Origin: Nocardioides bizhenqiangii
GTDB taxonomy: Bacteria > Actinomycetota > Actinomycetes > Propionibacteriales > Nocardioidaceae
Direction of reading: 5' to 3'
Assembly: GCF_034661235.1 (NCBI RefSeq)
Contig: NZ_CP141059.1
Span: 124,001-188,000 of the forward strand
Length of the DNA stretch: 64,000 bases
The notes under the pieces: generated by a model
Databases searched by the model: none
Seen by the model: only the letters and a program-made list of their open reading frames with translations
What the model was told of the DNA's origin: nothing
Shown here: in pieces, positions 7,406-54,287 of the stretch
Layout of the letters: each line of letters starts with the position of its first letter
Position numbering within the stretch: position 1 is the stretch's first letter
Made by a program: the position numbers and the translations under genes

Positions 7406-8020
7406 TCAGTTGTAGGCGATCCGGGGCCCGAACGCCGGACCCTGGCGCAGGATGTTCCCGTCGAGCCGGGCGTCGTCGACGAGGAGTGTGCCGTTGTTGA
7501 GCGCGCGAAACGCCGACCCGCCGGTGCGGATCCATTCCCGTGGACCGATGCAGCGGCGGGGGAACGTCATCACCACCCGCTCGGCGTCGTCGACCCGTCG
7601 GGCGCGGAGCCCGGCACAGTCCTGGCGGCCCTCGCCGTCGGTCCGCTCGAAGAAGGCCTCGGGCCTGCGTGACTCGTGGATGTAGCCCACCGACCAGGTA
7701 GCCGTCGCCGTGCGGACCCGCCAGAAGACCCAGAAGTCGCGGAGGGGGAGGTCGCGGACGGTCAGAGCGAGCCGCACCCGACCGCCGCCGTACCTCACCG
7801 CGATGCTGACGACGTCCTGCGCGTGGTTGCGAGGCCGCGGCTCTGTTGTCGGAGCTCCCGTGTTCCGGAAAACAGCGTGGACGACGTCCCGCCGGTCGTC
7901 GCGGGTTCGCTGCTGTTCGGCGGCCGCCGGAGATGTCGCGGTGAGGAGCAGGGCAACCGTCAGCAGCACGCCTACGGCCGCCGAGGGACGTCCGCGCCGG
8001 CCACGCGGTGAGATCGTCAT
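7406..8020 (-). CDS. Secreted protein of unknown function (paralogue 2)
   Basis: A 204-residue protein with an N-terminal signal sequence (RGRR, a hydrophobic run, then SPAAAE). The mature domain is related to the downstream paralogue: RDDRRDVVHAV, QDVVSIAVRYGG, LTVRDLPLRDFW, QDCAGLRARR, VVMTFPRRCIGPREW and VDDARLDGN. The ATG at 8020 gives a normal signal peptide. A longer in-frame start at 8125 would overlap the helR leader. The 21-bp gap to paralogue 1 suggests one transcript. No enzyme motif is visible. Confidence 0.68.
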   Translation of the reverse strand: MTISPRGRRGRPSAAVGVLLTVALLLTATSPAAAEQQRTRDDRRDVVHAVFRNTGAPTTEPRPRNHAQDVVSIAVRYGGGRVRLALTVRDLPLRDFWVFWRVRTATATWSVGYIHESRRPEAFFERTDGEGRQDCAGLRARRVDDAERVVMTFPRRCIGPREWIRTGGSAFRALNNGTLLVDDARLDGNILRQGPAFGPRIAYN

Positions 8021-8072
8021 GACGACAGTGTGGACCGAGTTCGCCGACCACGGTGTGTAGAGTTGGGAAGTT

Positions 8073-8091
8073 GTTGCTCCTGAGGGGCAAC
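8073..8091 (+). promoter_or_regulatory. 19-bp imperfect inverted repeat in the helR leader
   Basis: Eight-base arms GTTGCTCC and GGGGCAAC flank TGA, with 7 of 8 positions paired. A TAGAGT -10-like hexamer lies at 8058-8063, so the repeat would sit just after the transcription start and 40 bp before the chosen GTG. helR genes in other actinobacteria are induced through an inverted repeat called the rifamycin-associated element. Whether this repeat matches that consensus I cannot verify. Confidence 0.45.
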
Positions 8092-8130
8092 GTCTTGGAC
8101 TCGGTAGCGAACACAGCGGGGGCATCGTCG

Positions 8131-13758: not shown

Positions 13759-16314
13759 ATGCAACTCGAGGCGGCGATGCAGCACCTGTTGGAGCTGGCC
13801 TTCGATGATCCGGATGAGGCGAGCCGCCTCGCGGAGGCGCTCCTGGACACGTCCGACGACTCCATCACGCGATCGTGGGCCCTCCAGTGCCTGGGCATTG
13901 TCTTTCGCGAAGCTGGACGTCTCGACGAGTCCGTAGCGGTCCTGCGACGGGGGTTGGCCGAGGCCACGCGTGCTCGATCGCTCGATCGGATTTGTGACGT
14001 CCGTTCCACTCTCGGCATCACCCTGGTGTTCGGAGGGCGGACAAGATCAGGCTTGAGTCACCTCGCGAAAGCGGTCGGTGCCGAAGCTGCTTCTCATCGC
14101 GTAGCGGCCAAGGCCCTGATGCTGCAGGCGATGGGGCAGGGATACTCCGGAGGCTTTGCCGACGCCCGGACGAGCCTTCATCGATCCCTGGCCCGCGTTC
14201 GTGCGGCCGGTGATCCGGTGTGGGAGGCGCGGACCCTGGTCAACCTCGCGCATGTCGCGCTGCGTCTCGGGCTGGCGAGCGAGGCTGAGCACAGCATCGA
14301 GCTCGCAGAGCGCCTCTTTCGCGGTGAGGGTGCGGCAGTTGAAGCGCTCGACGCGGTGGGCAATCGAGGCGAGATCGCCGCATTCCGTGGCGACCTCGCC
14401 TCTGCGCTTCGGTGGTATGGGCTCGCTGTGGACGGCGCGACGCGCGCAGGTGTGCCCGTGCGACCCGAGCTCGCCGAGTTGCGGGTGTCGGCGATGCGTG
14501 CGGCTGGCCTCGCCGAGGAGGCGGTCGTGATGATGAGGGAGGCGCTGTCCGAAGACTCGCAGGCGCGAGCAAAGACGGCCGAGCTGCGTCTGACCCTGGC
14601 GGAGGCGTTGCTCGCCGCCGGCCATCCTGATGAGGCACTCGCGACCGCCCGCCGGGCCAGAGACGAATTCCGGGCGCAGCGGCGCGAGTGGCACAGGCTC
14701 CGCGCACGGTTGTTAGTGGCACGTGCGCTGGCTGCGCGGTCGGGTCGACCTGGTCACGACATAGCCGATATCGCCGACAAGCTCGACGCACAGGGAGCAG
14801 ACGAGGCGCCACTCGCGCTGACGCTGGCTGGTCGGGTCGCGCAACGGGACGATCGCGTGCCGCTGTTGCGGCGGGCGATGTCATACCGAACCCGCGCGAA
14901 CGGTCTCGTCCGGGCGAGCGCACATCTAGCCGGCGCGCTCGCGTGCGAGGAGTGCCAGGACCGGGCCGGCGTCCTCCGGGCCTGCGCCGCCGGCCTCGAT
15001 GCGATCGACGAGCACCGACGCCTGATGGGCAGCTCCGAGCTTCGCGCACTTGCGACAACGCACGGCCGCGAGCTCACCGAGATCGCGCTCCGACATGCCG
15101 CCCACGACCCCCGCACCCTGCTTCGGTGGAGCGAGCGCACCAGAGCCACCGCGCTCGCCCAGCCGCCGGCGACCTCCGACGCGGCGACCATCCCGGCCTC
15201 CCTCGCGGCCCTCCGTGACAACGGACGGCGGCTGGCCGAGGCGCGGCAGGCGGGGGAGCCGACCGAGGAGCTCGAGAAGGAGCGGCTGCGCCTGGAAAGG
15301 GCGGTGCGCACCGAGCACCACACGCAGTCGGCGGCGGGCACCGATCCCCAGCGGCCCGCGGCGGTCGAGGACATCGTGGCGGGGGTCGGCGACGGGTGCC
15401 TGGTCGAGCTGGTCGATGTCGACGGCACGCTCCACGTCCTGGTCGTCCACAACGGCCGGGTACGGCGGAAGGTCGCGGGCTCCACGACTGAGGTCGCCGA
15501 CCTGCTCGCTCCCGCCGCGATGCTGCTGCGGCGCGCCGCCCGCGGACGGCCGGCCGACACGGCCGACATCGGCCGCCGCCTGCAGGAGGCGATCCTCGGC
15601 GACGCGGTCCGCCTCATCCCGGACGGCCCGGTCACCCTGGCGCCCACCGCCCGCCTCCACGGCCTGGCCTGGTCGCTCCTCCCTGCGCTCCACGACCGGC
15701 CGTTCGCCATCGTGCCCTCAGCAGGTCAGTGGTTGCGCGCCACGAACGCGGAGCGGCCGGACCCGCAGCGCACCGTCCTCGTCGCCGGACCGGAGCTCGA
15801 GTCCGGCGGGGCGGAGGTGCCGGTCCTCGCGCAGCGCCACCCCGGCGCCGTGCTCCTCGACGGCCCGCACGCCACCCTCGGTGCGGTGCTCGACGCTCTC
15901 GACGGTGCCGACCTGGCGCACCTCGCGACCCACGGCCGGTTCCGCGCCGACAGCCCGCTCTTCTCCGCACTCGACCTGGCCGACGGTCCGCTGACCGTGC
16001 ACGACCTCGAGCGGCTGCGAACGGCGCCCTACCGGGTCGTCCTCTCCGCCTGCGAGTCCGGCGTGCTCGCCCCGGTCGGCGCCCAGGAGCTGCTCGGCCT
16101 GGCCGCCGCGCTGTTCTCGATCGGCACCGCCGGCCTGGTCTCCAGCGTCGGCGAGGTCAACGACGCCGCGACCGCCGACCTGATGGTCGGCCTCCACGAC
16201 GGGCTCGCTGCGGGAGCCGATCCGGCAGCCGCACTGCTCGCCGTACGGCGGGCCGCGGCCGACGATCCGGTCGCCGCCGGCACCGCGGCGGCGTTCGTCG
16301 CGCTGGGCGTGTGA
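13759..16314 (+). CDS. TPR-repeat CHAT-domain caspase-like protease
   Basis: An 851-residue protein. Residues 1-400 form helical TPR-like repeats (for example ALQCLGIVFREAGRLDESVA). A helical linker follows, and a CHAT domain occupies about 530-851. The catalytic dyad is complete: His725 in AHLATHGRF and Cys765 in VVLSACESG. CHAT proteins are relatives of caspases and separase, and TPR-CHAT proteins act as triggered proteases in bacterial conflict systems. The ATG at 13759 has a weak ribosome site. An ATG 15 bp later is possible. The first 1.5 kb is visibly less GC-biased at third positions than the CHAT half. It is divergent from the subtilase. Confidence 0.88.
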   Translation: MQLEAAMQHLLELAFDDPDEASRLAEALLDTSDDSITRSWALQCLGIVFREAGRLDESVAVLRRGLAEATRARSLDRICDVRSTLGITLVFGGRTRSGLSHLAKAVGAEAASHRVAAKALMLQAMGQGYSGGFADARTSLHRSLARVRAAGDPVWEARTLVNLAHVALRLGLASEAEHSIELAERLFRGEGAAVEALDAVGNRGEIAAFRGDLASALRWYGLAVDGATRAGVPVRPELAELRVSAMRAAGLAEEAVVMMREALSEDSQARAKTAELRLTLAEALLAAGHPDEALATARRARDEFRAQRREWHRLRARLLVARALAARSGRPGHDIADIADKLDAQGADEAPLALTLAGRVAQRDDRVPLLRRAMSYRTRANGLVRASAHLAGALACEECQDRAGVLRACAAGLDAIDEHRRLMGSSELRALATTHGRELTEIALRHAAHDPRTLLRWSERTRATALAQPPATSDAATIPASLAALRDNGRRLAEARQAGEPTEELEKERLRLERAVRTEHHTQSAAGTDPQRPAAVEDIVAGVGDGCLVELVDVDGTLHVLVVHNGRVRRKVAGSTTEVADLLAPAAMLLRRAARGRPADTADIGRRLQEAILGDAVRLIPDGPVTLAPTARLHGLAWSLLPALHDRPFAIVPSAGQWLRATNAERPDPQRTVLVAGPELESGGAEVPVLAQRHPGAVLLDGPHATLGAVLDALDGADLAHLATHGRFRADSPLFSALDLADGPLTVHDLERLRTAPYRVVLSACESGVLAPVGAQELLGLAAALFSIGTAGLVSSVGEVNDAATADLMVGLHDGLAAGADPAAALLAVRRAAADDPVAAGTAAAFVALGV

Positions 16315-28327: not shown

Positions 28328-29608
28328 TCAGAGGTAGCGCCACCAGAGGTACGGCGCGCACAGCGACAGCGTCACCGCGGTCACGACCAGGCCGTACTTC
28401 GTGAACTCCCAGAAGCTGATCGGATGCCCTTGTCGGGCCGCGATGCCGAGGGCGACCACATTGGCCGAGGCCCCGATCGCGGTGGCGTTGCCGCCGAGGT
28501 CGGCGCCGAGCGCCAGCGCCCACCACAGGACCTCGCCGTCCGCGCCGTGGCTGGCCGCCAGGTCGCCCACGATCGGGCTCATCGACGTGACGTAGGGGAT
28601 GTTGTCGACGATCGCCGAGAGGACGCCGGAACCGAAGAGCAGGACCATGGTCGCGAGCGGCAGCTTGCCCTCGGTCTGCTCCGCCGTGTACTCCGAGATG
28701 TCCCCGATCACGCCGGTCTCGACCAGGCCGCCGACCATGATGAAGAGGCCGGCGAAGAACAGCAGGGTCGGCCACTCGACCTCCTCCAGCGCCTGCTCGG
28801 TGGTGACCGACGTGATCAGCAGCAGCAGGCCGGCGCCGAGCAGCGCGACGACGGCGGGGTCGTAGTGGAGCCACGGGTGCAGGACGAAGGCGGCGACGAC
28901 GACCGCGAGCACGACCAACGCCTTGACGAGGAGCGCCGGCTCGGTGATCGCCTCCCGCTCGTTGAGCGCCAACACCGACTGCGCCTTCTCCGGGTCGAAG
29001 GTGAAGGCGGAACGGAAGAGGACGCGGCACAGGACGCAGTAGACAGCGAGCAGCACGACGATGATCGGCGCCATGTGGACGAGGAAGTCGTTGAACTCGA
29101 GATCCGCGTTCGCCGGGCTGGCGATGATGATGTTCGGGGGATCGCCGACGAGCGTCGCGGCTCCGCCGATGTTCGAGGCGAACACCTCGGCCATGATGTA
29201 CGGCGCCGACCGCAGGCCCAGCCGGTCACAGACGAGGAAGGTCACCGGCGCTATGAGGAGCACGGTCGTGACGTTGTCGAGCAGGGCGGACGCGAACGCC
29301 GTGAGCAGCACGAGAAGGACCATCAGCAGGTAGGGGCGGCCGCGGCTTCGCTTGGCCGCCCAGATGGCGACGTACTCGAAGACGCCCGTCTGCCGCAGCA
29401 CGGAGACGATGACCATCATCCCGAACAACAGGAAGATGACGTTCCACTCGATCCCGGTGTGGAGGTCGAAGAACGCCTTCTCGGCATCGGTGATGTGGAG
29501 CAGCAGCATCAACGCGGCGCCACCGAGCGCCACCTTGGTGCGGTGGACCTTCTCGGTCATCAAGAGGACGTAGGCGGCGACGAAGATGACGATGGCGGCG
29601 ATCGCCAC
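28328..29608 (-). CDS. ArsB/NhaD (SLC13-like) anion or Na+/H+ transporter
   Basis: A 426-residue membrane protein with about 11 spans. Signature segments are FASALLDNVTTVLLIAPV, ASNIGGAATLVGDPPNIII and GADLGGNATAIGASANVVA, an inverted-repeat pair typical of the ion transporter superfamily. Members move arsenite, sodium/proton or dicarboxylates. The motifs alone do not choose, though NhaD-type sodium export is plausible. The GTG at 29608 is preceded by GGGAGG. An RNA-like element shared with the nhaA leader lies at 29634-29685 in its leader, and a CBS-domain gene diverges from it. Confidence 0.85.
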   Translation of the reverse strand: MAIAAIVIFVAAYVLLMTEKVHRTKVALGGAALMLLLHITDAEKAFFDLHTGIEWNVIFLLFGMMVIVSVLRQTGVFEYVAIWAAKRSRGRPYLLMVLLVLLTAFASALLDNVTTVLLIAPVTFLVCDRLGLRSAPYIMAEVFASNIGGAATLVGDPPNIIIASPANADLEFNDFLVHMAPIIVVLLAVYCVLCRVLFRSAFTFDPEKAQSVLALNEREAITEPALLVKALVVLAVVVAAFVLHPWLHYDPAVVALLGAGLLLLITSVTTEQALEEVEWPTLLFFAGLFIMVGGLVETGVIGDISEYTAEQTEGKLPLATMVLLFGSGVLSAIVDNIPYVTSMSPIVGDLAASHGADGEVLWWALALGADLGGNATAIGASANVVALGIAARQGHPISFWEFTKYGLVVTAVTLSLCAPYLWWRYL

Positions 29609-29633
29609 GGGGCCTCCCTCGGGCGCGGGACTG

Positions 29634-29685
29634 GGACACGCCGACCAGACTTCCCGGCACACCTGTCCGACGACCCTATCGGCCA
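29634..29685 (-). ncRNA. Candidate cis-regulatory RNA, copy A (possible nhaA-I/Li+ riboswitch type)
   Basis: On the transcript strand the core GUGCCGGGAAG, one variable base, then CUGGUCGGCGU matches copy B near 31560. An outer stem pairs GGACA (29668-29664) with UGUCC (29638-29634). In copy B the same place pairs as GAUG/CAUC, so sequence differs while pairing is kept. An inner stem CCGGG-AAG-UCUGG is possible. The element lies 26 bp upstream of the transporter GTG. Confidence 0.5.
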
Positions 29686-29722
29686 GCATCGGCGGCGGGC
29701 GTTTCCGGGTAGCCTCGATGAG

Positions 29723-30226: not shown

Positions 30227-31519
30227 TCACTCGCTGCCGCGGTCCTCCAGGAACACGTCGGGCACCCCGTCGTGGTCGGAGTCCTGGGCCTCCAGCTCGC
30301 AGAGCCGGCGGTAGACCCGGTTGCGGGCCCGGAGCACGACCGCCGCGAGCAGGGCGGCGACCAAGGACCCGACGATCACGCCGACCTTGACCCGCTCGGC
30401 ACGAGCGCCGTCGGTGTAGGCGAGCTCCCCGATCAGCAAGGACACGGTGAAGCCGATGCCGGCCAGCATCGCCATCCCGAGCACGTCGGCCCACGCCAGC
30501 TCGTCGTCGAGGTCCGCGTGGGTGAAGGTGTGGAGCAACCAGGTCGCCGCCAGGACGCCGATCGGCTTCCCGAGCACCAGGCCCGCGATGACACCGAGCG
30601 CGACCGGGTCCTGCAGCGCGTCGAACAGGCCGGACCAGCCACCGAGGCCGACCCCGGCGGCGAAGAACGCGAAGACCGGCACGGCGATGCCCGCGGAGAA
30701 CGGGCGCACGAGGTGCTCGATGTGCTCGGCGAGGCCCCTTTCGTCCGGCCGGTGCTGGTGCAGCACGGGCACGGTGAAGGCGAGCAGCACCCCAGCCACG
30801 GTGGCGTGGACGCCCGAGGCGTGCACCAGCGCCCAGGCGACGGCCGCCAGCGGAAGCAGGAGCAGGGGATGGCTGATCCGGCGCTGGACCAGCAGACCGA
30901 ACGCCGCGATCGGCACCAGCGCGAGCAGGAGGTACGACGCGTGCAGCTCATCGGTGTAGAACAGCGCGATCACCGTGATCGCGAGCAGGTCGTCGACGAC
31001 CGCGAGGGTGAGCAGGAACGTCCGCAGCCCGCTCGGCAGGTGCGTGCTGATGACCGCGAGCACCGCCACCGCGAAGGCGATGTCGGTCGCGGTGGGGACT
31101 GCCCATCCCGCCATGTCGCCGGAGCCGGCCAGGTTGACGACCACGTAGCAGGCCGCGGGGGCCAGCATTCCGCCGAGCGCGGCTGCTACCGGCAGCGCCG
31201 CGCGCCGAGGGTCCCGCAGGTCGCCGGCGACGAACTCGCGCTTGAGCTCCAGGCCCGCGACGAAGAAGAACACGGCAAGGAGTCCGTCCGCGGCCCAGGC
31301 GCCGAGAGTGAGGTCGAGGTGGAGCGCGTGCGGGCCGATCCGGAGATCGCGGAACGAGTCGTACGTCGCCGCCCACGGGGTGTTGGCCCAGATGAACGCG
31401 ACCAGCGCCGCGGCGATGACCAGCGCGCCGCCGATGCTCTCGGCGCGCAGGACCTCTGCCACGCGGGAGCTCTCCAGGAACGAGCCGCGCGCGAAGAGCG
31501 GCCGACGGGGGTCAGTCAA
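30227..31519 (-). CDS. nhaA: Na+/H+ antiporter NhaA
   Basis: A 430-residue antiporter with about 12 spans. NhaA motifs include [18 protein letters not shown], the ion-binding Asp pair in [31 protein letters not shown] and [15 protein letters not shown]. It exchanges external protons for internal sodium or lithium. The start is a TTG at 31519 behind GAGGAG. The C-terminus extends past the usual end as a hydrophilic tail with [11 protein letters not shown], a calcium-binding-loop-like Asp repeat. It follows ribA on the same strand with a structured leader element in the 62-bp gap. Confidence 0.92.
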
Positions 31520-31541: not shown

Positions 31542-31590
31542 GATGACGCCGACCAGGCTTCCCGGCACTCCGGGCATCACCCTACCGATC
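31542..31590 (-). ncRNA. Candidate cis-regulatory RNA, copy B, upstream of nhaA
   Basis: On the transcript strand the core GUGCCGGGAAGCCUGGUCGGC is nearly identical to copy A near 29650 in a different leader. A 9-bp outer stem GGUGAUGCC/GGCGUCAUC (two G-U pairs) and an inner stem CCGGG-AAG-CCUGG fit. nhaA-I motif RNAs, reported as lithium-sensing riboswitches, are known upstream of nhaA. Identity with that family is inference, not a checked match. Confidence 0.52.
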
Positions 31591-32241
31591 GGGCAGCCCC
31601 CCGCCTCTCCCGCCGACGGCGACGTCCAAGGTGTGCGCGCCGCGCAGGGCCTTGGCGGCGAGGTAGCGGGCGTTGGCGTCGGAGAGGTGCACGGTGGTCG
31701 GCACCTGCTCCGCGATCACCAGTCCGGCTGCCTCCAGCTGCGCCGCCTTGTCGGGATTGTTGGTGAGCAGCCGGAGCCGGCGGATGCCGAGGGCATCGAG
31801 CATCTGGGCGGCCGGTGTGTAGTCGCGCTCGTCGGCTTCGTGGCCGAGCGCCAGGTTGGCCTGGTAGGTGTCCAGCCCGGTGTCCTGGAGCGTGTAGGCA
31901 TCGAGCTTCTCGTAGAGTCCGATTCCGCGCCCCTCCTGGCGGAGGTAGAGCAGGTAACCGCCCTCGTCGGTGATCCGGGCGAGCGACTCGTGCAGCTGGG
32001 GCCCGCAGTCGCAACGCTCGCTGCCGAGGACGTCGCCGGTGAGGCACTCGCTGTGCAGGCGCACCAGGGGCGACTGCTCGGCCGCGGGCACTCCGCGCAC
32101 CGCCGCCGAGCACGACCCGAGCCCGATCGCCAGGTGCTCGCGGCCGTCGAGCAGCCCGTCGAACGTGAACACCCGCCCGACCGTCGAGAACCCGTGCAGG
32201 CTCAACGGGATGGTGAGCTCGGTGCGGATGCGCGCGTCCAT
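31582..32241 (-). CDS. ribA: GTP cyclohydrolase II
   Basis: A 219-residue enzyme. The zinc site is [17 protein letters not shown] (about residues 58-74), and the catalytic segment is [20 protein letters not shown]. It opens GTP to 2,5-diamino-6-ribosylamino-pyrimidinone phosphate, the first riboflavin step. There is no fused DHBP synthase domain. It is the last gene of a six-gene operon with a RibD-like reductase, a pterin synthase-like protein, a glycosyltransferase and membrane proteins, rather than with the rib genes. A role outside vitamin synthesis is likely. The start is 2 bp after the reductase stop. Confidence 0.88.
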
Positions 32242-32243
32242 GG

Positions 32244-32936
32244 TCAGCCCGCGAACCGGTCGGAGAGCGCGTAGCGCAGGAGTACGACGTCGCCGATCGC
32301 GCGGGTCTCGACCAGCCGCGCCCGGTGGTCCGAGCACCACGGGAATCGCCCGTCGTCGACGAACCGGCGGGCGCGGGAGTCGCCCACGAAGAACGGCGCG
32401 ACGACCAGCTGCAGCTCGTCGGCCAGGCCACCGGTCAGGAACTGGGTGTGGACGGTTCCTCCGCCCTCGACCATCAGCCGCCGGATGCCGCGGTCGTGCA
32501 GGTCCTCGCCCACCCGGCGCATCCGACGCGGGGCGTGGCCGGCGTCGATCACCGTCGCCACCGGACCGAGCCGACCCCGGGCGGTCGACACCGCGTCGCT
32601 GCTGCAGTAGACCAGCTTCTCGCTGTCGCCCGCGGTGAAGAAGTTGGCGCGCGGGTCGAGGTCGCCGCGCGCGGTGACCGTCACCTTCGCCGGGGAGCTG
32701 GGCAGGCCGGCGGCGGCCCGCGCGCTGCGGCGCCTGGCCTCGCGCACCAGCAGCCGGGGGTTGTCCTTCCGGACCGTGGCCGCGCCGACCAGGATCGCGT
32801 CGCAACCCGCCCGCACCTCGTCGATCCGGTCGAAGTCGGCGTCGTTGGAGAGCATCAGCCGCTCCTCGGTCGCGCCGCCGAGGTAGCCGTCCAGGGACAT
32901 GCTGCAGCTCAGCAGGGTGTAGGGACGGTCAGCCAT
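32244..32936 (-). CDS. RibD C-terminal/dihydrofolate reductase-like reductase
   Basis: A 230-residue NADPH reductase of the RibD C-terminal fold. It has [13 protein letters not shown] at the N-terminus, [20 protein letters not shown], the nucleotide-binding [15 protein letters not shown], and [14 protein letters not shown]. It would reduce the ribosylamino-pyrimidine made by GTP cyclohydrolase II. There is no deaminase domain. The ATG at 32936 was chosen over a much longer low-complexity start. It overlaps the flippase-like gene end by 8 bp and precedes ribA by 2 bp. The two enzymes supply a reduced pyrimidine intermediate. Confidence 0.85.
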
Positions 32937-33843
32937 GGACGGCCTCCTCGGGTGTGGAATCCGGGGACCGGGTCGTGGGTGGAGTACCCCCGGCGAGGGT
33001 GAGCATGCCGGGCAGCGTGGCCACGAGCGACACCACGCCGAAGGCGACCGCCACGCTGACCCCCGTGTCGACGCCGAGACCGGCCGCACCGAAGAGCCAC
33101 GCCGCCGCGCCCTCGCGCGGGCCCCACCCCGCGACCGACAGTGGCAGCGCGGACGCGACGAGCACGACCAGGCTGAGCGCGACCAGCTCGGGCAGCGGTG
33201 CGGTGACGCCGACCGAGCGGGCGACGACGACGAGCACCACCACGTGACCCACGGCTGCCAGCGCGGAGGCCAGCACCACGCGGGGGAGCACCGCGCGTGC
33301 GGCGACCACCGCGCGCAGCTCGGCGGCGACCGCGCGGCGTACCCGTGCGGGCAATGCGGCGGCGACCACGACGAGCACGGTCGCGACCGCGAGCAGCAGC
33401 CACCCGGCCTCCGCCCGGACCGCGGCGGGAAGCAGGAGCAGGGCGGCCAGCGCGAGGGCGACCTGGACCGCCTGGCCGGACGTCCGGTCCCACAGCACCG
33501 ACCGGAGCCCCCGGCCGAGCGCGCCCGCCGAGCGGCCGTGGTCGATGCCGCGGTGGACGTCGCCGAGGACGCCGCCGGGAAGCGTCGCGTTGAGGAGCTG
33601 GGACCGGTAGTAACGGCGGTACGCCGTCCGCACCGGCACCGCGACGTCGAGCCGCGCGGCCAGCAGGCTCCACCGCCAGGCGCAGCACCACGTGGTGGCC
33701 GCGGTCACGGCGAGCGCGACCACGAGCGTGGTCGCGTCGGTGGAGCGGATGCCCTCGACGAAGGGCTCCGCGCCGAGCCGCACGGCGAGGACTCCCAGGA
33801 TCAGCACGCCGCCCATCAGCCGCACGCGTGCCCAGCGGTTCAT
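32929..33843 (-). CDS. Flippase-like membrane protein (LPG synthase TM family)
   Basis: A 304-residue protein with about eight spans. It matches the lysylphosphatidylglycerol synthase transmembrane family: YRRYYRSQLLNATLPGGVLGDVHRG at about residues 76-100 (read in two parts), SVLWDRTSGQAV, and SVAGWGPREGAAAWLFGAAG. The soluble aminoacyl-transferase half of MprF is absent. Such stand-alone proteins are thought to move or modify lipid-linked products. Overlaps of 4 bp with the glycosyltransferase gene and 8 bp with the reductase gene show tight coupling. Confidence 0.8.
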   Translation of the reverse strand: MNRWARVRLMGGVLILGVLAVRLGAEPFVEGIRSTDATTLVVALAVTAATTWCCAWRWSLLAARLDVAVPVRTAYRRYYRSQLLNATLPGGVLGDVHRGIDHGRSAGALGRGLRSVLWDRTSGQAVQVALALAALLLLPAAVRAEAGWLLLAVATVLVVVAAALPARVRRAVAAELRAVVAARAVLPRVVLASALAAVGHVVVLVVVARSVGVTAPLPELVALSLVVLVASALPLSVAGWGPREGAAAWLFGAAGLGVDTGVSVAVAFGVVSLVATLPGMLTLAGGTPPTTRSPDSTPEEAVHG

Positions 33844-34916
33844 CGGGCGGCTCGCGTGGTGTCGCGAACCACGATCGGTTCCAGCGGGGTCGCGTCGACA
33901 ACCGCGGCCAGCAGGCGCGCGGTGTCCTCCCAGGAGGCGAGGGTGGTGCGCCGGTCCCGTGCGGCCGCGCGCAGCCGCTCCCGGTGGTCTCGGTCGGTCA
34001 GCCAGCAGCGCAGGGCGGCGGCGAGGCGGTCGGGGTCGTCGGGCGGCACCAGCACGCCGGCCCGCTCGCCGGCCGTGGTCCCACCGACCGCCTCGCTGTG
34101 ACCGCCGACGTCGGTCACCACGACCGGCACGCCGCGCGCGAGCGCCTCGGTCACCGCCATCCCGAAGGACTCCCGGCGCGAGGCCGAGACCAGCAGGTCC
34201 GCGTTGTCGAGGGCGAACCCGAGCGGGTCGCCGGTCAGGGGTCCGGTGAACTCGACGCGGTCGCCGATCCCGGCCCCCTGGGCGGTGTCGGCCAGCTCGG
34301 CCACGAAGTCCGGCTCCAGGTCGGTCGCGCCGACGCAGGTGAGGACCCAGTCGAGGTCCGCGATCTGGGCCAGGGCCGCGACCAGGGTGTCGTGGCCCTT
34401 GTCCTGGGTCACCGCCGCCAGGCACATCAGCCGCCCGCCGGGAGGGAACGCCCAGGAGACGGGAGCCGGGTCGACGCCGGGCTTGGCGACGCTGACCCGA
34501 TCTGTCGGCAGCCCGTGGTGGCGGACCACCCACCCCCGGGCCCAGTCGCTGGTCGTGACGACGCCGGACGCGGCGGCGAGGGCGGCGCGCTCCGAGCGTC
34601 GTACCGACTCGTCGGTGGCGGCCTCGGCGAACGGCATGTGCAGGAGCACGACGACGCGGAGCCGCCCGGAGACCGGCTCGAGGGCGCCGGGTGCGGCCGA
34701 CCCCAGCAGGCCGTCGAGAACCACCACCGCGCCGTCGGGAAGGCCGGCCAGCAGCGGGCCGAGGTCCGCCACGTCCCCGACCCGGTGCTCGTGGACCTCC
34801 CTGTCCATCGCGGTCAGCGACTCGATCACCCGACGGTCGTAGTGGTTGCCGCCGCTGGGGCGCGCCGGGTCGTCGATCCCCGCTGGTACGACGAACTCGA
34901 TCGGCGCGCAGGTCAC
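33840..34916 (-). CDS. Glycosyltransferase family 4 protein
   Basis: A 358-residue GT-B enzyme. It has an N-terminal acceptor domain, [18 protein letters not shown] as the start of the donor domain, and the EX7E-type motif [29 protein letters not shown] loop contacts the nucleotide. The DXD motif is not expected in this fold. The acceptor is unknown. The GTG at 34916 overlaps the pterin synthase-like stop by 4 bp. Its place between a pterin-type enzyme and a flippase-like protein suggests glycosylation of a lipid or small-molecule intermediate on the inner face of the membrane. Confidence 0.85.
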
Positions 34917-35326
34917 AACGGCCGCCGGTAGCTGGCCCACGCGACGTGGGACTCCCGCAAGGTGACCTCGACGCCCGACAGCTGGTCCGCCGGCCGGCCG
35001 AGCTGACCGGCCTGTGCGCGCTCCGCGAGCCGGTCGGCGACCAGCCGGGCGAGCACCTCGGTCGTGGTGGTGAGGCCTGCCAGCGCCTCGACGGCGTCGA
35101 GGTTGCGGTAGGTGAGGTCGGCGAGCACCGCCTTGAGCTGCTCGGCGGCCCTCCCGATGTCGACCACGATTCCCGAGCCGTCCAGGTCGTCCGCGACGAA
35201 CGTCGCGTCGACGACGAACGTCGCGCCGTGCAGCTGCTGCGCGGGTCCGAAGACCTCGCCGCGCAGGCTGTGGGCGACCATCATGTGGTCGCGCACGGTC
35301 ACCCGGAACTCAGGACTCGTCGTCAT
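34913..35326 (-). CDS. 6-pyruvoyltetrahydropterin/6-carboxytetrahydropterin synthase-like protein
   Basis: A 137-residue T-fold protein. It has a zinc-type His in HMMVAHSL near residue 14, [11 protein letters not shown] near 33 for the other His, [15 protein letters not shown], and LTYRNLD. The catalytic Cys usual between the first two zinc histidines is not seen ([21 protein letters not shown]), so the reaction may differ from both mammalian PTPS and bacterial QueD. It sits 3 bp after the dehydrogenase gene in the same operon as GTP cyclohydrolase II. Confidence 0.78.
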
Positions 35327-35329
35327 GCC

Positions 35330-36325
35330 CTAGCCCTCCTCGTAGTCGATGGTGTGGCACAGCGTGGTCCGGTCGCCATCGGCGAGTCGGGCGAGCACGG
35401 CAGGCAGGTCGGCGAGGGGCGAGCGACCCGTGAGCAGCGCGTCGAACGCCGGGTCCGCGAGCAGCTCCAGGGCCAGGGCGAGCCGGTCCGCAGGGCTGCG
35501 CCGACCGCTTCGGGCGGGAGCGACGGTGCCCACCTGGCTGGCCCGGATGGTCAGCCGCGAGGAGTGGAACGTGCCGCCGAGCGGCACGGTGACCGGGCGG
35601 TCGCCGTACCAGCTGACGTCGAGCACGGTGCCCTCCGGCGCCAGCAGCTCGAGGGAGCGCTGCAGTCCGGCGGAGGTCGCGCTGGCGTGGACGACGAGGT
35701 CGCAGCCGTCGGACGCGTCCGCCGGTGCGGCGAACCCGACGCCGAGGGCGGCGGCGACGTCCGCCCGGGACGGCTCGGTGTCGACCAGCGTCACCCGGGT
35801 GCCCGGGATCCGACCCAGCAGACGGGCGATGCAGCAGCCGACCATGCCCGCACCGACGACCGCGATCCGGTCGCCGAGGAGCGGTGCGGCGTCCCAGACG
35901 GCATTGACCGCCGTCTCGACCGTCCCGGCGAGCACCGCCCGGTCGGACGGCACCGGGTCCGGGACGGGCGTCACCGCCGTGGCCGGTACGACGTAGGCGG
36001 TCTGGTGGGGATGCAGGCAGAAGACGCGGCGGCCGGTCAGAGCGGCCGGCCCCTCCTCGACGACGCCGACGCTGAGGTAGCCGTACTTCACCGGTCCGGG
36101 GAAGTCGCCGTCCTGGAACGGCGCGCGCATCGCGCGGTGCTGGTCGGCCGGCACGCCGCCGCGGAACACGAGCGTCTCGGTGCCGCGGCTGATCCCCGAG
36201 CGCAGGGCGCGCACCAGCACCTCGTCGTCGCCGGGCGCGCGCAGCTGCTCGGTCCGGATCTCGCCGCGACCCGGTTCGGCCAGCCAGAACGCACGTGCCT
36301 CCCGCACCGTCCGCTGCCTCCTCAC
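35330..36325 (-). CDS. Zinc-binding-type medium-chain dehydrogenase
   Basis: A 331-residue medium-chain dehydrogenase/reductase-like protein. It has an N-terminal GroES-like part (ALRSGISRGTETLVFRGGVP) and a Rossmann part with IAVVGAGMVGCCIARLLGR. It lacks the usual GHE zinc signature (GYLSVGVVEEG occupies that place), so the catalytic zinc is doubtful. The GTG at 36325 follows CAGGAAGC. It is the first gene of the operon that runs to ribA. A SigL-type promoter on its strand lies at 36381-36408. Confidence 0.8.
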   Translation of the reverse strand: MRRQRTVREARAFWLAEPGRGEIRTEQLRAPGDDEVLVRALRSGISRGTETLVFRGGVPADQHRAMRAPFQDGDFPGPVKYGYLSVGVVEEGPAALTGRRVFCLHPHQTAYVVPATAVTPVPDPVPSDRAVLAGTVETAVNAVWDAAPLLGDRIAVVGAGMVGCCIARLLGRIPGTRVTLVDTEPSRADVAAALGVGFAAPADASDGCDLVVHASATSAGLQRSLELLAPEGTVLDVSWYGDRPVTVPLGGTFHSSRLTIRASQVGTVAPARSGRRSPADRLALALELLADPAFDALLTGRSPLADLPAVLARLADGDRTTLCHTIDYEEG

Positions 36326-36339
36326 GTCCGGCTGCTTCC

Positions 36340-36367
36340 TGAACCGGATCGATTCCGGCACCGTATC
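36340..36367 (+). promoter_or_regulatory. SigL-type promoter of the phosphotransferase/sulfatase gene
   Basis: TGAACC at 36340-36345, 16 bp, then CGTATC at 36362-36367. The mycobacterial SigL consensus is TGAACC-N16-18-CGT. The GTG of the downstream gene is 27 bp after the -10. The sigma gene in question lies in this locus, at 39.4 kb. Confidence 0.7.
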
Positions 36368-36380
36368 CCTGATACCCCTA

Positions 36381-36408
36381 ATCACGGAGGCGTTGTGGGT
36401 CGGGTTCA
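36381..36408 (-). promoter_or_regulatory. SigL-type promoter of the dehydrogenase-to-ribA operon
   Basis: On the minus strand, TGAACC at 36408-36403, 16 bp, then CGTGAT at 36386-36381. It faces the dehydrogenase gene, with its -10 about 56 bp before the GTG. It lies back to back with the plus-strand promoter, and its -35 region falls within the first codons of the opposite gene. Confidence 0.68.
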
Positions 36409-38740
36409 GCACGGGCGTGTCCCGGGGCCGGTGGCGGTTGCCGTCGGCGTGCCCGCACTCCTGGTGACCCTCGACGTCGCGGTCGGGCTCGGTCCGCCCG
36501 GGTGGGCGATAGGACTGCTGGGCGGCGCCGTCCTCGCGGCACTCCTCGACGGCGCGCTGGTCCGGCACCGCGCCGGGGGTCTCGGGCCCGCGGGACGGAT
36601 CACCGCGACCCGCGCCGTTCTCGCCTGTGGGGTGGCGGCGCTGACTGCCGAGTCGTACGTCGCCGACGACCACGCAGCGCTGATCGTGGCGCTCGCCACG
36701 GTCGGCCTGGTGCTCGACGCCGTCGACGGCAGGGTGGCGCGTCGTACCCGGACCGAGTCGGCGCTCGGCGGCCGCTTCGACATGGAGGTGGACGCGTTCC
36801 TGATCGCGGTCCTCAGCGTGTACGTCGCACCAGCTGCCGGCTGGTGGGTGCTGGCGATCGGCGCGATCCGCTACGCCTACGTGGCCGTGAGCTGGGTGGT
36901 CCGCTGGCTCCGGCGTCCGCTGCCGCCGCGCTACTCCGCCAAGGTGGTGGCCGCTCTCCAGGGCATCGTGCTCACCGTCGCGGCGTCCGCGCTGGTGCCG
37001 CTGGTGGTGACCCAGGCGGTCCTGGTGGTCGCGCTGGGCCTGCTGGTCGAGTCCTTCGCCCGGGACGTCCGGACGCTGTGGCGGGAGCGTGTGGAGCCGC
37101 TCCCGCCACCACCCGACCCTGCTCCGGTCGGGTCGCTGGTGCGGCCGGCGGTCGTCACCGCCGCCGCCTTCGTCGGTCTCTGGGTCGCATTGGCGCTGCC
37201 GAACCCCGCGACCGGGCTGACGCCGGCGGACCTGCTGCGGATCCCGCTCGAGGGGCTGGTCCTGGTCGCGGTCGCCCTGGTGCTGCCGCACCGGCCACGG
37301 TTCTGGGCGGCCGTCGGGTTCGGCGCGGTCGCCGGTGCCCTGCTCGTCCTCCGGGTCGTCAACGCCGGCTTCGACCTGGTGCTGGACCGCCCGTTCGACC
37401 CGCTCGGTGACTGGGGCTACTTCGCGTCCGGGGTCGACGTGCTCGGTGACTCGATCGGCGACCTGGCGGCGCGGCTGGCCGCGGTGGGCGTGGTGGTGCT
37501 GATCGCTGTGGTGATCGTCGGGCTCGCCGGCGCGGCCGCCCGCGTGGTGCGGGTCGCGGCCGACCACCGGCCGCGGGCCACGCGCGGGGTGGTGGCGCTG
37601 GGCACGGCCTGGGCGGTCTGCGCGATCGCCGGCATCCACGTCGCGGGTGGGGCGCCGGTCGCGGCGGCCGGGGCTGCCGGGCTCGCCGTCGACACGGTCG
37701 ACCAGGTGCGGGCGGGGCTCGCCGACAGCGACGACTTCGCCGAGGAGATCGAGGCGGACCCGTTCGCCGACGTCCCGGACGACCAGCTGCTGCGGGGGCT
37801 CCGGGGCAAGGACGTGCTGCTCGTCTTCGTCGAGAGCTACGGCCGGAGCGCGACCCGCGGGTCGTCGTACTCACCCGGCGTCGAGGAGGTGCTGGTCGAC
37901 GGCACCCGGCGATTGACGGAGGCCGGCTACCTCACCCGCAGCGGCTACCTCACGTCGCCGACGTTCGGGGCGGCGAGCTGGCTGGCGCACGCGACCACCC
38001 AGTCCGGCCTGTGGGTGGACAGCGAGCGCCGCTACGGACAGCTGCTGGACAGCGACCGGCTCACCCTCGCGCGCGCGTTCGGGCGGGCCGGCTGGCGCAC
38101 CGTCTTCGACGTGCCGGCCAACACCGAGGACTGGCCGGAGGGGGAGGCCTTCTACGGGTTCGACCACATCTACGACTCCCGCAACGTCGGGTACGCCGGG
38201 CCCGAGTTCGGCTACGCGCTCGTACCGGACCAGTACACGCTCGAGCACCTCCGTCGCGAGGAGCTCACCGGCGGGGACCGGCCGCCGCTCTTCGCGGAGG
38301 TCGACCTCGTCTCCAGCCACCACCCGTGGACACCGCCGCCGCCGCTCGTGGCGTGGGACGAGGTCGGGGACGGGTCGGTCTTCGAGGGCACGACGGAGGA
38401 CGCCGAACCCGTCGACCAGGAAGCAGATCCCGCCAAGGCGCAGCAGCTCTACGGCCGGTCGATCGAGTACTCCTGGGAGACCCTGGTGTCCTTCCTCGAG
38501 ACCTACCCCGACCCCGACCGGGTGGTGGTGGTGCTCGGCGACCACGAGCCGTGGTCCTTCGTGAGCGGTGACGACGCCGGGCGCGACGTGCCGATCACCG
38601 TGATCGCGCAGGACGGCGACGTCGTACGGCGGACCGCGGACTGGCAGTGGTCTCCCGGGCTGCTGCCGCCCGCCGATGCCCCGGTGTGGCCGATGTCGGA
38701 GCTGCGGGACCGGCTGCTCACTGCGTTCGCGGGAGGTTGA
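36395..38740 (+). CDS. Fusion of CDP-alcohol phosphotransferase and sulfatase-like hydrolase
   Basis: A 781-residue membrane protein. The N-terminal part (about 1-230) carries the complete CDP-alcohol phosphotransferase motif: DAVDGRVAR, then GGRFDMEVD, with all four Asp. A middle region of about five spans follows. The C-terminal part (about 465-781) is an alkaline phosphatase/sulfatase-fold domain: DVLLVFVESYGRS metal site, SSHHPWTPP, and VLGDHEPW. It may attach an alcohol head group to CDP-diacylglycerol and then process a phospho-group outside. The GTG at 36395 has GGAGG only 4 bp away. It is divergent from the pterin/glycosyltransferase operon, with a SigL-type promoter. Confidence 0.8.
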   Translation: MGRVQHGRVPGPVAVAVGVPALLVTLDVAVGLGPPGWAIGLLGGAVLAALLDGALVRHRAGGLGPAGRITATRAVLACGVAALTAESYVADDHAALIVALATVGLVLDAVDGRVARRTRTESALGGRFDMEVDAFLIAVLSVYVAPAAGWWVLAIGAIRYAYVAVSWVVRWLRRPLPPRYSAKVVAALQGIVLTVAASALVPLVVTQAVLVVALGLLVESFARDVRTLWRERVEPLPPPPDPAPVGSLVRPAVVTAAAFVGLWVALALPNPATGLTPADLLRIPLEGLVLVAVALVLPHRPRFWAAVGFGAVAGALLVLRVVNAGFDLVLDRPFDPLGDWGYFASGVDVLGDSIGDLAARLAAVGVVVLIAVVIVGLAGAAARVVRVAADHRPRATRGVVALGTAWAVCAIAGIHVAGGAPVAAAGAAGLAVDTVDQVRAGLADSDDFAEEIEADPFADVPDDQLLRGLRGKDVLLVFVESYGRSATRGSSYSPGVEEVLVDGTRRLTEAGYLTRSGYLTSPTFGAASWLAHATTQSGLWVDSERRYGQLLDSDRLTLARAFGRAGWRTVFDVPANTEDWPEGEAFYGFDHIYDSRNVGYAGPEFGYALVPDQYTLEHLRREELTGGDRPPLFAEVDLVSSHHPWTPPPPLVAWDEVGDGSVFEGTTEDAEPVDQEADPAKAQQLYGRSIEYSWETLVSFLETYPDPDRVVVVLGDHEPWSFVSGDDAGRDVPITVIAQDGDVVRRTADWQWSPGLLPPADAPVWPMSELRDRLLTAFAGG

Positions 38741-39428
38741 GCAGCAGGATCGGCCCGTAGGAGCCCTCGACCGCGACCTTCTCGATCTCGTCCACGTCGA
38801 ACGAGGTCGTGCCGCTCTCCTCCACCTCCTCGCCCGAGGTGGCGGAGAACTCCCTGACCTGCTCGGCGCGACCGCCGTCCCCGGGGTAGACGACCACCGT
38901 GTAGGTGTGGGCCTGATCACCGCCGTACGAGCTGCGGTAGACGCAGGTCAGGTCGAGGCGGGTGCCACCCGACGCGAGCGGCGTCAGCGAGATCCAGCCC
39001 TCCGACTGGCTGTGCCCCACGGGGGTCATCAGCTGCGGTGGCGCGGTGGTCTCGACCACCGGCGGCGGGGAGGTGACGGTCTCGTCGTCGTCGCCGAGCG
39101 AGCCGGCGACGACTGCGGACCCGCCGGCGATGACAGTCACCGCCGCCGCGGCGAGCAGGGCCGCACGGATGGTCCGGCGTCGCTGCTGCCGCTCGGCGGC
39201 AGCGACCAGGGCGGGGAGCAGTGTCCCGGGCACTGGCTCACGGTCGAGATCCGGTGCGAGCACCTCGGCGGGCACCCGAGCCAGCAACCCGGGCAGACCG
39301 GCGAGCTCGCGCACCGACCGCGCGCACTCGTCGCACCCGCTGAGGTGGCGCTCGAAGTCCGCGCGCTCCGCGGGCGCGAGCGAGCCCAGCACGTAGGCCG
39401 CGTCGAGCGTGGAAAACCGGCAGCTCAC
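38718..39428 (-). CDS. Zinc-finger membrane anti-sigma factor, RslA-like
   Basis: A 236-residue protein. The zinc anti-sigma motif is HLSGCDEC at about residues 28-35. One membrane span lies at about 87-110 (AALLAAAAVTVIAGGSAVVAG), followed by an extracytoplasmic domain with one Cys (LTCVYRSSYGG). The GTG at 39428 overlaps the sigma stop as GTGA. Position and motif make it the partner of the adjacent SigL-like factor, released perhaps by redox or proteolysis as described for RslA. Its 3' end overlaps the convergent fusion gene by 23 bp. Confidence 0.85.
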   Translation of the reverse strand: MSCRFSTLDAAYVLGSLAPAERADFERHLSGCDECARSVRELAGLPGLLARVPAEVLAPDLDREPVPGTLLPALVAAAERQQRRRTIRAALLAAAAVTVIAGGSAVVAGSLGDDDETVTSPPPVVETTAPPQLMTPVGHSQSEGWISLTPLASGGTRLDLTCVYRSSYGGDQAHTYTVVVYPGDGGRAEQVREFSATSGEEVEESGTTSFDVDEIEKVAVEGSYGPILLLNLPRTQ

Positions 39429-39937
39429 TGGCTCACCCCCAGCTCTTCGAGGGACAGCCGCAGCGCGCGCAACGCGTAGTGGGTGCGGGACTTGACGGTC
39501 CCCTCGGGGATCCCCAGCCGCCGGGCGGCCTCGGCCACGGACTGGCCGCGGTAGTAGCACTCCAGCAGTACGGCGCGGTGCTCGCGCGAGAGCTGCGTGA
39601 GCGCCTCGGCGACCACCCACGAGAGCAGCAGCTGGTCGGTGCGGTCCTCCGCGCCGGAGAGCTCCGCGAGGTCGTCGGTCGGGATCTCCTTGCGGCTGCG
39701 CTTCGTGCGCCACTCGTCGATCACGATGTTGCGCGCGACGGTGAACAGCCACGACCGCACCGAGCCCCGCGACTCCTCGAGCACCCTGGCGTTGCGCCAC
39801 GCCCGCAACAGCGTCTCCTGCGTGACGTCCTCGGCGTGTGCCCGATCGTTGCCCGTGAGGTGCAGGCAGAACGCCCACAGCGACGCTGCATGCTCGTCGT
39901 GCAGCTGTCGCATCGCCGTGGCCAGGTCTTCCGGCAT
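39425..39937 (-). CDS. ECF RNA polymerase sigma factor, SigL type
   Basis: A 170-residue ECF sigma factor with AEDVTQETLLRAWRNARVL and SVRSWLFTVARNIVIDEWR in region 2, and GQSVAEAARRLGIPEGTVKSR in region 4. The ATG at 39937 follows GGGAGG. An in-frame TTG 12 bp upstream is less likely. The GTGA overlap with the zinc anti-sigma gene and a TGAACC-N16-CGT promoter upstream match SigL of mycobacteria. The same promoter form recurs at the 36.4-kb divergent region, so this factor is the probable controller of that block. Confidence 0.85.
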   Translation of the reverse strand: MPEDLATAMRQLHDEHAASLWAFCLHLTGNDRAHAEDVTQETLLRAWRNARVLEESRGSVRSWLFTVARNIVIDEWRTKRSRKEIPTDDLAELSGAEDRTDQLLLSWVVAEALTQLSREHRAVLLECYYRGQSVAEAARRLGIPEGTVKSRTHYALRALRLSLEELGVSQ

Positions 39938-39954
39938 CACACCTCCCAACCAGT

Positions 39955-39982
39955 CCTACGCAGTCGGCCGGTCCCGGGTTCA
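39955..39982 (-). promoter_or_regulatory. SigL-type autoregulatory promoter
   Basis: On the minus strand, TGAACC at 39982-39977, 16 bp, then CGTAGG at 39960-39955. The -10 ends 17 bp before the sigma ATG, which leaves a short leader with the ribosome site. Autoregulation is usual for ECF sigma genes. Confidence 0.72.
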
Positions 39983-53747: not shown

Positions 53748-54287
53748 ATGGGATCCATCAAGTCCGGCCTCTTCATCTCACTCGACGGCGTCATCGAGTC
53801 GCCCGAGACCTGGCACTTCGACTACTGGAGCGACGAGATGGGCGCGGCCGTCGGGGAGCTGATGAGCGACTCCGACGCCACGCTGCTCGGGCGGCAGACC
53901 TACGAGGAGTTCGCGTCGTACTGGCCCGACGCCGACCCCGATGACCCGATCACCGCGCAGATGAACGGCGCCAAGAAGTACGTCGTCTCCAGCTCGCTGA
54001 AGGAGGCGACCTGGGAGAACTCCACGGTCGTCAACGGCGACGTCGCGGCCGAGTTGGCCGCGCTCAAGGAGAACGCCAAGCTCGGCACCACGGGCAGCGC
54101 CACCCTCGTCCGCTGGATGCTCGAGCAGGGCCTCGTCGACGAGCTGCACCTGCTGGTGCACCCGGTCGTGGTCGGCAAGGGCAAGAAGCTCTTCGAGGAC
54201 GGCGCCAAGGTGCCGCTCCAGCTCAAGTCGTCCACCCAGTTCGACAGCGGCGTGCTGCACCTCGTCTACGTGCCGGCTGGAGAATGA
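53748..54287 (+). CDS. Dihydrofolate reductase-family (RibD C-terminal-like) protein
   Basis: A 179-residue NADPH-reductase-fold protein: GLFISLDGVIESPETWHFDY, then TLLGRQTYEEFASYWP, GSATLVRWMLEQGLVDELHL and HPVVVGKGKKLFED. This group is common beside YciI-like proteins and ECF sigma factors in actinobacteria, and its substrate is unknown. The ATG at 53748 follows AGGGAGA. Its stop overlaps the DGPF-protein start by 4 bp, so it belongs to the ECF42-type operon. Confidence 0.82.
   Translation: MGSIKSGLFISLDGVIESPETWHFDYWSDEMGAAVGELMSDSDATLLGRQTYEEFASYWPDADPDDPITAQMNGAKKYVVSSSLKEATWENSTVVNGDVAAELAALKENAKLGTTGSATLVRWMLEQGLVDELHLLVHPVVVGKGKKLFEDGAKVPLQLKSSTQFDSGVLHLVYVPAGE

Follow-up and report, generated by a model that had tools for sequence, protein, structure and literature searches.

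Which molecule is made, and under what control, by a densely packed gene set of Nocardioides bizhenqiangii is the question raised by the locus described here. It lies in a 64,000-nt stretch of contig NZ_CP141059.1 (positions 124,001 to 188,000; hereafter the window, whose numbering is used unless stated), in a genome of 4.55 Mb on one contig. Six minus-strand genes form an operon encoding a dehydrogenase, a T-fold protein of the PTPS family, a GT4 glycosyltransferase, an LPG_synthase_TM membrane protein, a RibD-type reductase and the GTP cyclohydrolase II RibA. The operon faces a divergent plus-strand gene for a CDP-alcohol phosphotransferase fusion, beyond which lies a sigma/anti-sigma pair. 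Every gene of the block was present with the family that an earlier, sequence-only reading had named, as judged by Pfam and NCBIfam matches. Sequence comparison established the genes, the promoter motifs and their co-conservation, and on balance we favour, as the overall explanation, a locus dedicated to biosynthesis and switched by a SigL/RslA-type pair.

Co-conservation, which the sequence-only reading had proposed as its check, was examined in loci anchored on the T-fold protein, using the best 80 of 575 confirmed matches (the named loci). With the window proteins as tblastn queries, matches were found to the T-fold protein and the glycosyltransferase (80 loci each), the dehydrogenase (79), the LPG_synthase_TM protein (70), the CDP-alcohol phosphotransferase (66), the RibD-type reductase and RibA (59 each), the sigma factor (11) and the anti-sigma factor (5); the counts are lowered by contig ends in some loci, and several of the sigma matches are only 34-39% identical. 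The dehydrogenase gene stands directly before the T-fold gene in 77 of 79 loci and the glycosyltransferase gene directly after it in 78 of 80, with a methyltransferase gene between the glycosyltransferase and LPG_synthase_TM genes in many. Across the phylum, 31 of 296 genomes matched the T-fold protein at 1e-10. Twenty distant loci were assembled from 19 of the 21 matches with at most 42% identity plus G008; the RibD-type reductase, dehydrogenase, T-fold and glycosyltransferase genes occur together in 13 of them, three of the four in L200, and six lack the set. The set is thus kept together across relatives, and its core also at a distance. We found no description of the whole gene set in the literature searched, which left most subscription papers outside it. 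In the distant locus L182, the glycosyltransferase and methyltransferase share one frame. In another, L183, a dihydroneopterin aldolase (FolB) gene (7639-8130, minus strand) is divergent from the cluster, beside genes for an acyltransferase and a major facilitator superfamily transporter; it may be a folate gene there by chance, or a pathway member.

The second line of evidence is the promoter motif. The window contains the three TGAACC-N16-CGT sites of the sequence-only reading, all exact, with end coordinates that had been placed 3 nt too far. With spacers of 15-19 nt, the pattern has 5 matches in the window against 1.78 expected, a number reached by 2 of 100 shuffles, and the genome holds 55 exact N16 sites, whereas the reversed pattern occurs 8 times. 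A crude gene caller scored 23 of the 30 genome sites looked at (55 total) as lying inside genes, two of the 23 being the divergent pair of the window, scored inside spurious frames; a genome-wide SigL regulon drawn from the motif alone was therefore given up. Of the seven sites not scored inside genes, one (L009:1501-1525) stands 96 bp upstream of a methyltransferase-family gene and may mark another SigL target. In one genome alone the motif is weak evidence, and it is conservation that makes the case.

We searched the 150 bp upstream of the dehydrogenase gene in 92 relatives, namely the 80 named loci and 14 loci of the window's family, excluding L094 and L242, where the dehydrogenase had no match. 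YGAACC-N16-CGT points toward the dehydrogenase in 43, away from it in 50 and in both directions in 36 (15 of the 36 from Micromonospora), and other spacers from 10 to 24 occur in at most 4 on either strand. As a control, 4600 random windows from the same loci gave 51 toward, 35 away and 9 both. Across the 92 relatives no spacer but 16 is enriched, and this holds on either strand; a chance motif was therefore rejected. The strict TGAACC form occurs in 12 and 20 of 79 named loci on the two strands, plus 4 with N17. Where both sites are present they span 71-98 bp in 35 of 36 relatives and overlap in L120; 13 family relatives have both sites (10) or the outward one only (3). On the operon-directed strand, part of the conserved CCTCCGT is the reverse of the neighbour's Shine-Dalgarno sequence (ACGGAGG), so that this half-site alone proves little, but the -35 half is not so explained. 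Many relatives read CGTGT at the -10 element; one report gives the SigL preference there as C-G followed by T-G-N-C/A-A-G (PMC6372665). Transcription is predicted to start near 36371 (+) and 36377 (-), about 6 bp apart, with an overlap of about 7 nt between the 5' ends. Two transcription complexes placed face to face in this way should therefore exclude each other, and only one polymerase is likely to be bound at a time.

The protein that would read these sites is encoded at the far end of the block. Among solved structures, the sigma protein matched M. tuberculosis SigL best (6dv9, 2.4e-47; the next near-full-length chain, 4.8e-14), and it exceeds the cut-off of NF007227, which we take to be the model for SigL. 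The anti-sigma protein, whose closest solved structure is RslA, has a zinc-type HxxxCxxC motif and a membrane segment, and its gene overlaps the sigma gene by 4 nt. The SigL-like pair of the sequence-only reading was therefore upheld. To relate sigma factor and cluster, we compared 61 genomes of the window's family, 15 of which have the T-fold gene and 13 a SigL-like gene with an E value of 1e-64 or lower. Cluster and close SigL-like gene occur together in 12 genomes, the cluster only in 3, the sigma gene only in 1 and neither in 45 (Fisher 3.2e-9, at a threshold chosen after the list was seen). With all 17 sigma matches at 1e-45 the counts become 12, 3, 5 and 41 (Fisher 1.2e-6); both p values are indicative, since the genomes are related by descent and not all of them are complete. 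Ten of the 12 co-occurring genomes, the window's included, have the sigma and T-fold genes at most 7 kb apart; the remaining two have them on separate contigs.

TGAACC-N16-CGT also lies within 250 bp upstream of 19 of 30 SigL-like loci (30 looked at of 54 sigma matches, from 24 cluster genomes), 14 of them among the 16 best matches, a count that has no chance control; among linked family sigma genes, 7 of 9 have it upstream and an eighth has it with N17. The sequence-only reading had the sigma factor ruling the whole set. Within the family this stands well: the factor co-occurs with the cluster and usually adjoins it, and its motif precedes both transcription units and the sigma gene. Control of the cluster by the SigL-like factor is thus very probable. 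RslA is reported to sequester SigL under reducing conditions and to lose its zinc upon oxidation (PMC2877774), which suggests possible redox control at the window's locus.

Table 1. Features of the locus in window coordinates
Feature	Position	Strand	Basis
MDR-like (medium-chain dehydrogenase/reductase) dehydrogenase	35330..36307	-	weak PF00107 and BchC matches, below cut-offs; alignment
PTPS-family T-fold protein, SCO6650 (PDB 3D7J) ortholog	34913..35326	-	E 6.9e-48 to 3d7j
GT4 glycosyltransferase	33840..34916	-	PF00534, 102 bits; junction
LPG_synthase_TM (flippase-like) membrane protein	32929..33843	-	PF03706, 100.6 bits; 8 hydrophobic segments
RibD C-terminal-type reductase, without deaminase motif	32244..32936	-	PF01872, 131.6 bits
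GTP cyclohydrolase II (RibA), second copy, tyrosine lineage	31582..32241	-	PF00925, 187 bits; tree
CDP-alcohol phosphotransferase fused to LtaS/EptA-fold domain	36395..38740	+	PF01066, 39.4 bits; fold matches
SigL-like extracytoplasmic function (ECF) sigma factor	39425..39937	-	NF007227, 227.8 bits (cut-off 202); best solved chain M. tuberculosis SigL
RslA-like anti-sigma factor with HLSGCDEC motif and a single hydrophobic segment	38718..39428	-	PF13490; 3hug_B, 1.2e-12
TGAACC-N16-CGT site directing the operon	36384..36408	-	pattern search; conserved in relatives
TGAACC-N16-CGT site directing the CDP-alcohol phosphotransferase gene, face to face with the operon site	36340..36364	+	pattern search; conserved in relatives
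TGAACC-N16-CGT site before the sigma gene	39958..39982	-	pattern search; same motif before other SigL-like genes

The operon junctions are gaps of 2-3 nt or overlaps of 4-8 nt, given a glycosyltransferase start at 34916, where GTG overlaps the T-fold stop codon as GTGA; a start at 34940 is also possible. Just past the operon's 3' end are genes for a CitMHS/ArsB-type transporter and an NhaA antiporter (28328-29689 and 30227-31519, minus strand).

The entry chemistry of the pathway is best approached through RibA. The window protein has the zinc cysteines, EGRGIGL and the canonical tyrosine. At the position of its EKLDAY tyrosine, the 59 cluster RibA rows read Tyr (47), Met (6), His (4) and Ser (1), and one is cut; the rows outside both classes are L098 (cut) and L115 (degenerate, Ser). 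In L115, from Pseudonocardia (14214-14847), the zinc-ligand stretch is altered and the tyrosine lost, so that RibA looks degenerate, and the other cluster genes are present. The Met type of S. coelicolor, SCO6655 (Tyr to Met), reportedly stops at the formylated product. A creatininase-family gene is present in all 10 Met/His loci (nine by tblastn, L134 by Pfam), and tblastn found none in the 47 Tyr loci. A genome-wide search in 12 relatives found no creatininase in three Tyr genomes (L092, L105 and L118) and one or more in the other nine. BrbF, a creatininase-family formamidase of S. meliloti, acts on the formylated RibA intermediate (PMC9478397). We infer a deformylating role for the creatininases of the Met/His loci. 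In a tree of 34 of the 61 RibA rows, hand-picked for spread, with bootstrap values that had not settled and a long-branch warning, the rows of the window's type, 21 in the sample and every one Tyr, group with support in a single lineage. The Met and His rows are placed opposite them, close to the genome's other copy, and so is a long branch of L114 (Tyr) and L115 (Ser). Because two ways reach it, Tyr RibA on the one hand and Met/His RibA with a creatininase on the other, the diaminopyrimidine would be the pathway's substrate, which suggests an intermediate shared by both RibA lineages.

The T-fold protein would act on what follows. Residues 6-137 of 137 align with 3D7J (164.8 bits), yet the protein lacks the full set of zinc histidines and the triad of PTPS and QueD: LHGA replaces the GHGH pattern, LTYRNLD replaces LDHKNLD, and Cys is lacking, judged by the residues that we take to form the PTPS Cys/Asp/His triad. 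Among 12 close rows, from which P0065 was left out for an internal repeat, Ala takes the place of the second zinc histidine and Glu125 never varies; distant-group rows keep three histidines without the triad. As the triad is lost in both, neither group looks like PTPS or QueD, and both may hold a 2-amino-4-oxo ring. The product of RibA and the RibD-type reductase would keep this 2-amino-4-oxo edge, since the cluster proteins have no deaminase motif. The window protein is probably metal-free. In the dehydrogenase, GISRGTE presumably occupies the place of the Cys motif of zinc-dependent MDR proteins.

From these parts a pathway can be proposed. With SigL firing the two face-to-face promoters, the second RibA would open GTP to 2,5-diamino-6-(5-phosphoribosylamino)pyrimidin-4(3H)-one, an entry intermediate that we regard as probable. 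The RibD-type reductase would convert the ribosyl to a ribityl chain, with the 2-amino group retained in a cluster without deaminase. The T-fold protein, which keeps the pterin-anchoring glutamate and has lost the PTPS triad, would make a pterin-like product together with the dehydrogenase, and the glycosyltransferase would attach a sugar. The gene families fit such a GTP-derived start and sugar transfer, and for a glycosylated pterin-like product we see an even chance. The flippase-like protein and the CDP-alcohol phosphotransferase/LtaS-type protein would then bring the product through the membrane and couple it with a phospholipid or headgroup; lipid attachment is put forward tentatively, as rather less likely than not. 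The complete picture is speculative and somewhat unlikely in all its details: actinobacteria would make an undescribed class of envelope molecule, a phospholipid-anchored, glycosylated 8-ribityl-type pterin, starting with GTP and using a RibA/RibD route that was put together on more than one occasion; SigL/RslA would switch it on in some families, and the molecule might serve outside the cytoplasm as a redox cofactor or antioxidant.

The lipid step depends on the fusion protein. Its CDP-alcohol phosphotransferase part (residues ~1-240) has the motif DxxDGxxAR..GxxxDxxxD at residue 108. The LtaS/EptA-fold domain (~443-781) has ES, SSH and GDH motifs, and its fold matches LtaS/EptA-type phosphotransferases and arylsulfatases/sulfatases alike, in a predicted model of low confidence in the membrane half. 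The sequence-only reading had called the gene a phosphotransferase/sulfatase fusion. The first half stands; the sulfatase reading is disfavoured, as the window protein lacks the C/S-x-P-x-R formylglycine signature (SAPGR occurs in one of eight aligned rows). We class the second half as an LtaS/EptA-type phosphotransferase with putative headgroup transfer. Matches to the phosphotransferase half occur in 65 loci and to the LtaS-like half in 39; the two share one frame in the window, L092, L105, L108 and L120, and are out of frame in L063, L081 and L137, where they are read as separate genes. An unlikely alternative is that the product is a soluble, secreted glycosylated pterin or pyrimidine, comparable to pterin glycosides, and that the fusion protein is a separate envelope enzyme sharing SigL. 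The gene is divergent, outside the operon; no LtaS-like half was found near 27 of the 65 phosphotransferase loci, contig ends included; and 13 of the 20 distant loci have the core without detected membrane genes. However, the phosphotransferase gene is divergent from the dehydrogenase gene in most named loci that have it, with the face-to-face promoter serving both, and the LPG_synthase_TM gene is present in 70 of 80 loci.

A product without the ribityl chain would result if the RibD-type reductase acted after ring closure, on a dihydropterin or otherwise, which we consider improbable. RibD_C and DHFR have a common fold, and the best NCBIfam match of the reductase, TIGR01508 (archaeal ribosylaminopyrimidinone reductase), scores 131 bits, below the equivalog cut-off of 186. 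Yet this best model is itself a ribosylaminopyrimidinone reductase, the named matches among solved structures include such enzymes (6p8c and 2azn; the top four are 'Conserved protein' chains), and the RibA product is their known substrate.

Elsewhere in the genome, there is one other GTP cyclohydrolase II match, higher-scoring and with an open frame of 451 aa (C1:2204010), probably RibBA, and a strong RibD_C match lies 1.3 kb from it, at 2.20 Mb. The T-fold protein is the only PTPS-family match in the genome at the threshold used, and the dehydrogenase the only match at 1e-10. RibD_C-family matches number 12, one of them also inside the window at 53769-54257 (+) (G000:C1:177769-178257; 86 bits). 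We read the cluster RibA and RibD-type reductase as extra copies. Very improbable is that they merely raise riboflavin or deazaflavin supply under SigL stress: both belong to riboflavin-pathway families, but the nine cluster and sigma proteins show neither a deaminase motif nor a RibB, RibE or RibH family, so that plain riboflavin duplication is disfavoured, a second gene pair exists at 2.20 Mb, and linkage to the T-fold, dehydrogenase and glycosyltransferase genes is constant.

Several observations speak against the favoured explanation. Against sigma control as a general rule, 35 of the 92 relatives lack the strict motif on either strand. The motif-less rows include all Streptomyces (four), Amycolatopsis, Saccharothrix and Pseudonocardia, plus four Micromonospora, and some have looser matches (TGAAC only, N17, or a start inside the gene). 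At the -10 element the window's three sites have CGTAT, CGTGA and CGTAG, and one alone has the T-G preferred by SigL. Three family genomes with the cluster have no SigL-like match at 1e-45. Thirty of the 80 named loci are from Micromonospora, so the rows are not independent; RibA and the RibD-type reductase are each absent from 21 of the 80, some on cut contigs; and tblastn found neither the CDP-alcohol phosphotransferase nor the LPG_synthase_TM gene in the 13 distant core loci. On the RibA side, the Tyr row L114 lies outside the Tyr lineage, and the Met/His label needs 2 changes on the tree (1-2 in bootstraps), so its link with the creatininase does not amount to many independent events. For the cluster creatininases, MftE is the best-scoring family (132-139 bits, cut-off 172) and ArfB gives less (32-40 bits, cut-off 180), and the single creatininase-family gene of the window's genome lies at a distance of 3 Mb (G000:C1:3220027-3220650). 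By its open reading frames, the latter adjoins an MftD-like gene and a short-chain dehydrogenase gene, and it probably belongs to a mycofactocin locus.

Single members are what was previously known of this set from S. coelicolor. The window T-fold protein is the ortholog of SCO6650, whose solved structure (3D7J) is named 'uncharacterized' and which has, to our knowledge, no assigned function; Streptomyces loci share the dehydrogenase, T-fold, glycosyltransferase order, but the four Streptomyces rows have no strict SigL site. SCO6655, reportedly of the Met type and near SCO6650, would fall in the other RibA lineage than the window's RibA. Archaeal ArfB and ArfC and BrbF of S. meliloti offer a likeness for GTP ring opening, ribosyl reduction and, inferred in the Met/His loci only, creatininase-family deformylation; these enzymes feed riboflavin or F420, whereas the window's steps sit with T-fold, glycosyltransferase and membrane genes. 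Unlike the LtaS/EptA-type phosphotransferases, the window domain is fused to a CDP-alcohol phosphotransferase. If the proposal is right, a widespread pathway gains a gene list, a likely point of entry and, in the anti-sigma gene, a switch that deletion should turn on, and a role would be given to the orphan structure 3D7J and to the surplus RibA copies of actinomycetes. SigL and RslA of M. tuberculosis are the best solved relatives of the two window regulators, with the HxxxCxxC motif in common, and SigL is reported to regulate cell-wall and polyketide genes (PMC2877774). The window cluster would be another kind of target, and would add it to a sigma factor hitherto tied to those genes.

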